Source: Clostridium sp.
GTDB lineage: Bacteria; Bacillota; Clostridia; Clostridiales; Clostridiaceae
Direction: 5' to 3'
DNA length: 44,993 nt
Assembly: GCA_022773025.1 (NCBI GenBank)
Contig: JALEZF010000065.1
Coordinates: 1 to 44,993, forward strand
The notes under the pieces are model-generated. The model did no database searches, had not been told where the DNA came from, and was given only the letters and a program-made list of their open reading frames with translations. Position numbers and translations under genes: made by a program. Of this stretch, positions 9,887 through 11,916 are shown in pieces. Position 1 is the first letter of the stretch. The number at the start of each line of letters is the position of its first letter.

Positions 9887-9915
9887 TTGATAAATAAAAA
9901 TATGTATGATACAAT
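9887..9915 (+). promoter_or_regulatory. Sigma-A promoter of pyrR
   Basis: TTGATA (9887-9892) and TACAAT (9910-9915) are separated by exactly 17 bases. Transcription would start near 9922, a few bases before the PyrR-binding RNA hairpin. It begins about 30 bases after the rluD stop, with no terminator in between. Confidence 0.8.
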
Positions 9916-9930
9916 AAAACAAAGTGAAGA

Positions 9931-9995
9931 CCTTTAAATGGCTCCGAGAAGTCGTAAGGATAAAATTATATTTTGATAGGTTAAGTTTTATCCTT
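9931..9995 (+). promoter_or_regulatory. PyrR-binding hairpin and antiterminator of the pyrR attenuator
   Basis: A lower stem CCTT (9931-9934)/AAGG (9956-9959), a 5' bulge TAAA, an upper stem TGGCT/AGTCG and a hexaloop CCGAGA (9944-9949) fit the known PyrR target: a conserved UUUAA-containing bulge and a CNGNGA loop. The AAGGATAAAA segment at 9956-9965 can instead pair perfectly with TTTTATCCTT at 9986-9995, forming an antiterminator that destroys the terminator. PyrR with UMP stabilises the first hairpin and so favours termination. Confidence 0.9.
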
Positions 9996-10016
9996 AGGAT
10001 AAAACTTTTTATTTTT
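9983..10016 (+). terminator. Attenuator terminator before pyrR
   Basis: An 11-base perfect stem AAGTTTTATCC (9983-9993)/GGATAAAACTT (9997-10007) with a three-base loop is followed by TTTATTTTT. It is mutually exclusive with the upstream antiterminator helix and lies 30 bases before pyrR. Confidence 0.9.
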
Positions 10017-10046: not shown

Positions 10047-10583
10047 ATGAATTTAAAAGCTACTTTACTCGACAAGGACTCTATAAGAAGAAGTTTGATA
10101 AGAATTTCTCATGAAATTATTGAAAAAAATAAAGGTGCACAAGACATTATATTAATCGGAATAAAAAGAAGAGGATATCCTTTAGCTAAAAGAATAGCAG
10201 AAAATATCCGTAAGTTTGAGGGCACAGATGTACCTGTGGGAACTGTAGATATATCCTTATACAGAGATGATTTAGAAAACTTGGATGACAAGGCTACAAT
10301 AAATGATAAAAATTTAGGTGTAGAGGTAAAGGGAAAGAAAGTCATTCTTATAGATGATGTTTTATATACAGGAAGAACTGTAAGAGCAGCAATTGATGCT
10401 ATTATGGATCAAGGAAGACCTAGCATAATACAACTTGGAGTTTTAATTGATAGAGGTCATAGAGAACTTCCTATAAGAGCTGATTATGTTGGGAAAAACA
10501 TACCAACTTCTAAAGATGAGATAGTATGTGTATCTATTGAAGAGATTGATGAGGAAGATTCAGTAAAGATTTACGAGAGATAG
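10047..10583 (+). CDS. pyrR: Bifunctional pyr operon regulator / uracil phosphoribosyltransferase PyrR
   Basis: 178 residues, type I phosphoribosyltransferase fold. The PRPP loop VILIDDVLYTGRTVRAA is complete, and IILIGIKRRGYPLA near the N-terminus and QLGVLIDRGHRELPIRADYVGKN match PyrR. It binds UMP/UTP and the leader RNA to control pyrimidine genes, and has weak uracil phosphoribosyltransferase activity. AAAGGAGG lies 6 bases before the ATG. The attenuator directly upstream means the gene is autoregulated. It is followed after 64 bases by uraA; the de novo pyr genes are not in this window, so here PyrR is paired with uracil uptake only. Confidence 0.97.
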   Translation: MNLKATLLDKDSIRRSLIRISHEIIEKNKGAQDIILIGIKRRGYPLAKRIAENIRKFEGTDVPVGTVDISLYRDDLENLDDKATINDKNLGVEVKGKKVILIDDVLYTGRTVRAAIDAIMDQGRPSIIQLGVLIDRGHRELPIRADYVGKNIPTSKDEIVCVSIEEIDEEDSVKIYER

Positions 10584-10606: not shown

Positions 10607-10641
10607 CTTTTAAAATAACCCAGAGAGGTTATAAAGGGAGG
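10607..10641 (+). promoter_or_regulatory. Second PyrR-type RNA hairpin, overlapping the uraA ribosome site
   Basis: A lower stem CTTT (10607-10610)/AAAG (10633-10636), a bulge TAAA, a 6-base upper stem ATAACC/GGTTAT and a CAGAGA hexaloop (10621-10626) reproduce the PyrR target pattern of the pyrR leader. The 3' side of the lower stem is the beginning of AAAGGGAGG (10633-10641), the Shine-Dalgarno sequence of uraA. No terminator or alternative helix follows, so PyrR bound here would most simply block translation. The structure is seen; the mechanism is inferred. Confidence 0.82.
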
Positions 10642-10647
10642 AAAAAA

Positions 10648-11916
10648 ATGAAAAATTATATTGATGTAGATGAAAAAATGCCTTTATTAAAAACCATACC
10701 ATTAAGCCTTCAACACCTTTTTGCTATGGTAGGAGCTACAATACTAGTTCCTATGCTTACAAATACTAGCCCTTCTCTAGCACTATTTTGTAGTGGAATT
10801 GGAACACTACTATATATTCTCTGCACAAAGGGAAAGCTACCTGCATATATAGGTTCATCCTTTGCATTTATTGCACCTATAACAGTAGCTACAGCAGAAT
10901 ACGGAAAAAGTGCTATGCTCTCAGGTGTTATTGGAGCAGGTGTTATCTATGTAATTACAGCTGGAATAATAAAGGTTGTAGGAACAAAGTGGATTGACAG
11001 AATACTTCCACCAGTATTAGTTGGATCAGTAGTAATAGTAATAGGACTAGGACTTGCAGGTACTGCAATAAACTGGGCAGGACTTAATCCAAACTTTGTA
11101 TCAGATGCTATGGTTAATGTTTCAAGAAGTACATGGATACTAGTGTCTCTAGTTACTTTAGGCGTTGGTGTATTTGGAAGTATGTATTTCAAGGGTTTCC
11201 TAGGGGTTATACCAATACTTATAGCAATGGTAGTTGGATATCTATTATCATTGTTCTTAGGAGTTATACCAAAAGAAACTATAGATTTGATTTTATCTTC
11301 AAATATAATACAAGTACCAGAGTTTACATTCCCTACTTTCCATATGGGTTCTATAATGCTTATGGCACCAGTGGCTGTTGTTACATTAGCAGAGCATATA
11401 GGACATGTTTATGTAACTAACAATGTGTGTGGAAGAGATTTTACAGTAGATCCAGGACTTCATAGATCCATATTAGGAGATGGAGTTGCAACTATGTTCG
11501 CAGGACTTGTAGGAGGACCTCCAAACACAACTTATGGAGAAAATATAGGAGTTATGGCCATAACTAGAGTTTATAGTGTATGGGTTATTGGAGTAGCTGC
11601 TGTTATCGCAATATTACTTTCATTTATAGGACCAGTAGCAACTATCATTAGTAATATACCACTACCTGTAATGGGTGGAGTAAGTGTACTATTATTTGGA
11701 ATAATAGCTTCATCTGGATTTAGAATATTTGTTGAAAATAAGATTGATTTTAGTAAAAAGAAAAATTTAATAATATCTTCAGTTGTTATAGTCCTTGGCA
11801 TAGGCGGAGCTATAATAAAGATTGGAAATACTGAGCTTTCAGGGGTGGCTTTAGCTACATTAGTAGGTATAGTATTAAACTTAGTTTTACCTGAAATTAG
11901 TAAGTCGGAACAATAA
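10648..11916 (+). CDS. uraA: Uracil permease (NCS2 nucleobase:cation symporter)
   Basis: 422 residues with about 12-14 membrane segments. LPLSLQHLFAMVGATILVP near the N-terminus and VGGPPNTTYGENIGVMAIT in the middle are characteristic of the UraA/PyrP branch of the NCS2 family. It imports uracil by proton symport, feeding UMP synthesis by uracil phosphoribosyltransferase. AAAGGGAGG lies 6 bases before the ATG, inside a PyrR-like RNA hairpin, so uptake is likely shut down when UMP is high. It shares the pyrR transcript and is followed by a terminator-like hairpin. Confidence 0.95.
   Translation: MKNYIDVDEKMPLLKTIPLSLQHLFAMVGATILVPMLTNTSPSLALFCSGIGTLLYILCTKGKLPAYIGSSFAFIAPITVATAEYGKSAMLSGVIGAGVIYVITAGIIKVVGTKWIDRILPPVLVGSVVIVIGLGLAGTAINWAGLNPNFVSDAMVNVSRSTWILVSLVTLGVGVFGSMYFKGFLGVIPILIAMVVGYLLSLFLGVIPKETIDLILSSNIIQVPEFTFPTFHMGSIMLMAPVAVVTLAEHIGHVYVTNNVCGRDFTVDPGLHRSILGDGVATMFAGLVGGPPNTTYGENIGVMAITRVYSVWVIGVAAVIAILLSFIGPVATIISNIPLPVMGGVSVLLFGIIASSGFRIFVENKIDFSKKKNLIISSVVIVLGIGGAIIKIGNTELSGVALATLVGIVLNLVLPEISKSEQ

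Follow-up and report, generated by a model that had tools for sequence, protein, structure and literature searches.

The pyrR-uraA locus forms part of the window, by which we mean the whole 44,993-nt stretch of Clostridium sp. DNA that was analysed; its features are collected in Table 1, together with some of the related leaders discussed below. It is likely that pyrR and uraA form one transcript. The promoter-like site in front of pyrR is a consensus match only, eight such sites having been found in the region where 10.3 are expected by chance. The pyrR product matched PF00156, its translation contains the PRPP motif VILIDDVLYTGRT and its top matches in the PDB were PyrR proteins; by the family profile it is a full-length member of the family. 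It is 96% identical to the PyrR protein of C. cadaveris IFB3C5 (L009), which marks the source of the window as a relative of C. cadaveris. When 81 PyrR proteins were compared (those of 80 PyrR loci of named genomes and that of the window), R19 and H22 were invariant in all 81, and position 18, which is I in the window protein, was T in 45. T18 is presumably an RNA-contact residue of Bacillus PyrR, and the I at this position was counted against the explanation preferred below.

Table 1. Features of the pyrR-uraA locus and of related leaders. Positions refer to the window unless a locus is named; SD, Shine-Dalgarno sequence.
Feature	Position	Strand	Details
Promoter-like site of the pyrR-uraA transcript	9887..9915	+	TTGATA-17-TACAAT; 10/12 matches; TG before second hexamer
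PyrR binding loop of the pyrR leader (anti-antiterminator)	9931..9959	+	loop CCGAGA; strict scan; RF00515 34.7 bits
Antiterminator of the pyrR leader	9956..9995	+	AAGGATAAAA (9956-9965) pairs with TTTTATCCTT (9986-9995)
Intrinsic terminator of the pyrR leader	9983..10007	+	followed by TTTATTTTTA; -10.1 kcal/mol folded alone
pyrR	10047..10583	+	178 aa; NF003549 248 bits (cut-off 138)
Predicted PyrR binding loop on the ribosome site of uraA	10607..10637	+	lower stem CTTT 10607-10610 / AAAG 10633-10636; bulge TAAA 10611-10614; upper stem ATAACC 10615-10620 / GGTTAT 10627-10632; loop CAGAGA 10621-10626
uraA SD core GGGAGG	10636..10641	+	6 nt before ATG; first bases within the 3' strand of the binding loop
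uraA, uracil permease	10648..11916	+	422 aa; NF007995 503.1 bits (cut-off 477); PF00860
Terminator-like site 3' of uraA	11952..11981	+	would end the two-gene transcript
pyrB leader of the own genome, attenuator-type and SD binding loops	L091:1503-1642 = G000:C26:19049-19190		followed by pyrF-like and pyrE-like ORFs
Sequestor-type uraA loci	L121, L124, L217, L218, L229, L235, L240, L243		
Sequestor-type uraA loci (continued)	L244, L252, L253, L257, L258, L265, L267		

PyrR binding loops were searched for with a strict scan that required a CNGNGA loop, an upper stem of at least 4 pairs, a bulge of 2-6 nt and a lower stem of at least 3 pairs. On both strands of the 45-kb window just two loops scored 9 or more, one in the pyrR leader and the other at the junction between pyrR and uraA. 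In the leader, the binding loop is followed by an antiterminator and an intrinsic terminator. The antiterminator, which is the minimum-energy fold, has the segment AAGG in common with the binding loop and competes with the terminator, the latter having been picked up by the consensus scan. The original prediction of transcription attenuation before pyrR thus agrees with the folds, the terminator scan and the Rfam alignment. An upstream binding loop was found at 36 of the 81 pyrR loci.

The junction hairpin has exactly the stems, bulge and loop that had been predicted, and the 31-mer alone folds into exactly this structure (-5.0 kcal/mol). As in a PyrR binding loop, a CNGNGA hexaloop is carried by an upper stem of about 5-7 pairs (CAGAGA on ATAACC/GGTTAT), and a purine-rich internal bulge (UAAA) separates the upper from the lower stem. 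The available part of PMC7430163 gives the PyrR consensus as ARUCCAGAGAGGYU and names the internal bulge as a feature; the loop and the bulge of the junction hairpin fit this published description. The claim that the hairpin is of one type with the pyrR-leader loop also holds, both being strict binding loops and the only two in the window. When the 64-nt junction was put through 20,000 dinucleotide shuffles, no strict binding loop arose. Thermodynamic stability was considered as evidence and rejected: the 87-nt region has a z value of -0.69, and 45 of 200 shuffles fold at least as well.

The 3' strand of the hairpin was claimed to overlap the uraA SD; it does so, entering only its beginning. 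Between 10584 and 10647 the consensus scan found no promoter-like site and, as predicted, no terminator, so that the junction lacks the succession of binding loop, antiterminator and terminator that makes a transcription attenuator. The further claim that there is no rival helix is not strictly true. In a 141-nt context the pairs of the upper stem have probabilities of 0.64-0.72 and those of the lower stem only 0.02, because the bases of the lower stem can instead pair, if weakly, with the end of pyrR. Both hairpins of the window align to the binding-loop part of the Rfam family RF00515, with scores below the gathering score of 54 (34.7 bits for the leader and 28.8 bits for the junction), and at gathering scores no Rfam family matched anywhere in the window. 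Since the RF00515 model includes a terminator, which is absent at the junction, this failure speaks against an RF00515 member as curated and not against a PyrR binding loop; loops of the SD type fall below gathering.

Among the 81 loci, 39 have a uraA homologue within 260 nt 3' of pyrR. These junctions comprise 25 short ones, 13 from Bacilli (Halobacillus, Gracilibacillus, Saliterribacillus and Thalassobacillus) and that of Geosporobacter (L081). The strict motif is present in 16 of the 25 short junctions, and in all 16 the end of the loop is 18-24 nt from the start codon, despite junction lengths that range from 39 to 125 nt. Thus, the position of the binding loop follows the start codon rather than the pyrR end. 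Inspection by eye of the nine junctions without the strict motif showed loop variants in L011, L035 and L066, degenerate loops in L061 and L082, and no loop in L058, L068, L069 and L075. In L066 (L066:3038-3188) a tandem repeat of some 21 bases, of the GATAAATAGCTTCGAAGAA type, makes the junction longer; after it there is an SD loop with a five-base loop.

All 16 strict rows share the C, G, G and A of the loop, which is in part due to their selection. A covariation test with these 16 rows is biased, as the rows were picked by pairing, and for this reason two sets not chosen for pairing were assembled, one of the 25 uraA junctions and the other of 87 pyrB leaders. In the 25 junctions 93.2% of the upper-stem cells are paired, compared with 85.8% in shuffles, and two-sided changes were found in 4 of the 5 upper-stem pairs. 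This last value was reached by 12 of 500 shuffles, whereas neither the number of cells with two-sided changes nor the covariation score was reached by any of the 500. The register of the lower stem slides by one base among the relatives. The check proposed with the original prediction, covariation in relatives, thus came out in its favour, the junction hairpin being conserved. All 13 Bacilli junctions (142-241 nt) contain, as judged by eye, a binding loop followed by an inverted repeat with a T run, an attenuator-like arrangement, and the Geosporobacter junction has a sequestor-like form. Within the loci compared, one junction with one sensor loop is predicted to carry different expression platforms in Bacilli and in Clostridia.

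The leaders of pyrB were studied in 96 Clostridiaceae genomes, 94 of which had a PyrB match; the 87 leaders with E < 1e-120 were used. A strict binding loop lies on the pyrB SD in 55 of the 87, and in another 20 the closing pair of the SD loop is a mismatch, which gives 75 if one mismatch is allowed. The rest, as seen by eye, are seven other variants and five leaders with nothing recognisable (L140, L166, L210, L211 and L212). An attenuator-type binding loop at least 100 nt upstream of pyrB was found in 66 of the 87 leaders, with a terminator-like hairpin detected by script in 64 of these 66. Among the leaders with an SD loop, 42 of the 55 strict ones and 16 of the 20 relaxed ones (58/75) have an attenuator-type loop as well. 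Distances from binding loop to pyrB start are two-peaked: 55 loops are on the SD, 66 are at least 100 nt away and none is in between. In 54 of the 55 strict rows the loop ends 7-13 nt before the start. A binding loop in the SD position was not obtained in any of 4,350 shuffles. Across the 87 pyrB SD regions, which were not chosen for pairing, 87.3% of cells are paired compared with 80.5% in shuffles; two-sided changes occur in 8 of 11 pairs, and on each of five measures none of 500 shuffles was as high. In the pyrB leader of the genome to which the window belongs (own genome), a binding loop is followed by a terminator-like hairpin (-14.2 kcal/mol) and, 105 nt further on, by a second binding loop on the pyrB SD.

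The C-G closing pair is found in 22 of the 55 strict pyrB SD loops, compared with 53 of the 66 attenuator-type loops. According to the available part of PMC7430163, PyrR binding is influenced by the top of the upper stem; taken together with the lower share of C-G pairs, this could make the pyrB SD loops a weaker lock that may close later. Closing-pair variation in these loops could possibly reflect a tuning of affinity.

When the 3.15-Mb own genome was searched with R1, a covariance model of the uraA junction, the four best matches were at uraA, at pyrB (two) and at a symporter gene, and the other five had E values of at least 1.58. A search of the same genome with a degenerate pattern proved useless (270 forward and 313 reverse matches; the reversed control pattern gave 423 and 261). 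At E 0.05, R1 matched 176 of 194 Clostridiaceae genomes, and PyrR was found in 184 of them; the co-occurrence is moderate (170 genomes with both, 6 with R1 only, 14 with PyrR only, 4 with neither; Fisher p = 0.008). Sixty R1 matches not beside an already examined pyrR or pyrB were picked among the matches listed: for 26 of the 60 a uraA homologue starts 3-15 nt further on (L241, among these 26, looks more sequestor-like), for 13 it starts 34-70 nt further on, and 5 are on a pyrB SD. Binding loops are therefore also located at the SD of uraA genes unlinked to pyrR. Another model, R2, was run on 291 genomes of the class and matched 43, of which 30 are outside Clostridiaceae. Eighteen R2 loci were inspected, and six of them, all from family f21, have an attenuator-type and an SD binding loop in tandem at pyrB. 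The SD-placed binding loop is not specific to uraA and also occupies the pyrB SD, both within Clostridiaceae and in at least one further family of the same class. RF00515 at its gathering score gave a single match in seven loci holding such elements, namely the symporter leader of L223.

The covariation and fixed place of the junction loop, the attenuator in the leader and the recurrence at pyrB support, at the level of sequence, the idea that PyrR exerts dual control on this operon. Taking into account also the anatomy of the hairpin, its fixed spacing to the start codon, the gene specificity of the model matches, the presence of the element at two genes and the contrast with Bacilli, we consider it highly probable that the segment 10607-10637 forms a binding loop for PyrR over the ribosome-binding site of uraA, and that one protein would combine translational repression there with attenuation in the leader. 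We infer that PyrR binds the junction loop, that binding depends on UMP and that translation of uraA is repressed.

The binding loop reaches into the SD of the gene that it would regulate (10636-10641). When the loop was forced to form in the 16 uraA junctions, the median unpaired fraction of the SD changed from 0.305 in the free RNA to 0.445, and it fell in 3 of 16 (RNA alone). Formation of the hairpin thus does not lower the accessibility of the uraA SD, the computed openness of which rises, and sequestration of the SD by the hairpin only found no support in silico. With an SD that the forced hairpin leaves no less open than before, repression probably depends on PyrR being bound and not on SD pairing. 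In the predicted translation block before uraA, the placement of the binding loop on the SD in a fixed register stood up to analysis, whereas closure of the SD by hairpin pairing alone did not.

According to the model, when UMP is plentiful PyrR-UMP would stabilise the binding loop of the leader, which is the anti-antiterminator, and the pyrR-uraA transcript would end early. On the transcripts that escape, PyrR-UMP bound to the second loop would cover the SD and the landing site of the 30S subunit, leaving uraA untranslated. When UMP is scarce, the weak junction hairpin would open and the ribosome could load on uraA. Expression of uraA would thus be controlled twice by PyrR, at the level of transcription first and at that of translation second.

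PyrR bound to the junction hairpin might act on transcription instead, by pausing or terminating the polymerase (with Rho, or through polarity after an untranslated uraA), in which case the overlap with the SD would be a side effect of the compact intergenic space. The Bacilli do carry a transcription attenuator at the same junction, and the level of uraA mRNA could fall as a secondary effect of blocked translation. However, the window has no terminator between the binding loop and uraA, the loop keeps its 18-24 nt to the start codon while junctions range from 39 to 125 nt, pyrB already has a separate upstream attenuator-type loop with a terminator in 42 of the 55 strict cases, and SD loops are also present at uraA genes away from pyrR. 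We regard an effect on transcription as improbable.

It is less probable still that the hairpin is a vestigial attenuator that lost its terminator and kept a binding loop without a function of its own. The two-sided compensatory changes in 4 of 5 uraA pairs and 8 of 11 pyrB pairs, the loop C, G, G and A shared by all 16 strict rows (in part a matter of selection) and the recurrence of the same placement at pyrB and at unlinked uraA genes argue against such a relic, even though the hairpin is lost or altered in 9 of the 25 junctions and the closing pair is C-G in just 22 of 55 pyrB SD loops compared with 53 of 66 attenuator-type loops. Least probable of all appears to be a simple SD structure (an RNA thermometer, an mRNA stabiliser or an element of translational coupling) that resembles a PyrR loop by chance. 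Such elements can be weak and SD-proximal, as this hairpin is, but a chance resemblance is difficult to reconcile with the failure of 20,000 shuffles to reproduce the hairpin, with the location of the four best own-genome matches at uraA, pyrB and one symporter gene (all others having E values of 1.58 or higher), and with the agreement of loop and bulge with the consensus in the available part of PMC7430163. A PyrR binding loop that acts on uraA translation thus remains the preferred explanation.

Other arrangements of the binding loop were also encountered. At 15 uraA loci (Table 1) the loop is followed by antisequestor-like and SD-sequestor-like hairpins, with the start codon at 34-70 nt. 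This form is suggestive of a translational counterpart of the Bacillus attenuator. When the loop was forced in 17 valid rows of this type (the first L235 row, a chance ATG, was excluded), median SD openness went from 0.24 in the free RNA to 0.11, with a fall of at least 0.15 in 5 of the 17. Several sequestor-type loci have a further binding loop upstream. In the carA leaders of L256, L262, L264 and L266 the binding loop is, by eye, next to the SD of what may be a short leader ORF, and the same was seen by eye at pyrB in L295 and L301, which are from another family of the class. Inverted repeats follow further on at these loci (by eye). PyrR may gate the translation of a leader peptide at these short ORFs.

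More tentatively, with somewhat less than an even chance of being right, PyrR could be viewed as a multi-output regulator in Clostridiaceae and some other Clostridia, with at least four platforms. The four platforms would be attenuators with intrinsic terminators, direct cover of the SD at uraA and pyrB, switches composed of binding loop, antisequestor and sequestor at uraA, and, in front of carA or pyrB, the SD of a short leader ORF. Where an attenuator loop and an SD loop stand one behind the other, the response to UMP would be graded and have two thresholds, the SD loop of pyrB being the weaker site.

PyrR-dependent translational repression was reportedly described by Fields and Switzer in 2007 in Mycobacterium smegmatis, where control by PyrR is said to operate at one level only, that of translation, at the pyrR leader. 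The output proposed here is similar in that PyrR would block translation at a ribosome site. Unlike the mycobacterial system, the clostridial device is on uraA and pyrB and would be combined with a separate attenuator under the same PyrR. In Bacillus subtilis, PyrR attenuates transcription at three sites, before pyrR, between pyrR and pyrP and between pyrP and pyrB (PMC7430163, available part). The locus in the window resembles this system in regulator family, RNA loop type and operon neighbourhood, and its pyrR leader has the same architecture. In contrast to the Bacilli rows, in which the binding loop is followed by a terminator, the loop at the clostridial junction has no terminator and its 3' strand enters the SD of the gene. 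The related clostridial uraA form with antisequestor-like and sequestor-like hairpins resembles switches in which an antisequestor opposes sequestering of the SD; the uraA element of the window differs in having no such hairpin, the binding loop itself being on the SD.

As far as their available parts go, a survey of RNA regulons that includes RF00515 among 43 families (PMC3766115) and a terminator-based survey (PMC2965389) build on the curated model or on terminators, and would thus tend to miss SD loops. PyrR loops on clostridial ribosome sites were not found described in the literature searched, which lay short of the main PyrR reviews and included the available parts of PMC10672894, PMC3766115, PMC2965389, PMC4347634, PMC10942264 and PMC7430163. 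Attenuation by PyrR is already known; within the bounds of the literature searched, the clostridial SD-loop form may be new. If the proposed dual control is true, a single protein that senses a metabolite governs one and the same mRNA at both the transcriptional and the translational level, and a homologous operon junction differs in platform between Bacilli and Clostridia with the sensor loop unchanged. The curated family model would then overlook most such sites in the loci scanned here, and the question why two serial locks persist on pyrB and uraA would become directly testable. There is also a practical bearing on 5-fluorouracil counter-selection in clostridia, in which pyrR mutations arise according to the available part of PMC10672894.

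In the own genome, a gene of the sodium:dicarboxylate symporter family (PF00375) is preceded by a binding loop and a terminator (L090:1503-1635, corresponding to G000:C49:28104 on), and this arrangement was also seen in L223 and L221. The own-genome symporter ORF (449 aa) scores below the NCBIfam cut-offs for DctA and GltP; the symporter may import aspartate or another pyrimidine precursor. A binding loop with a terminator is also located before a pyrF-like gene in L214 (from position 151 on, reverse strand).
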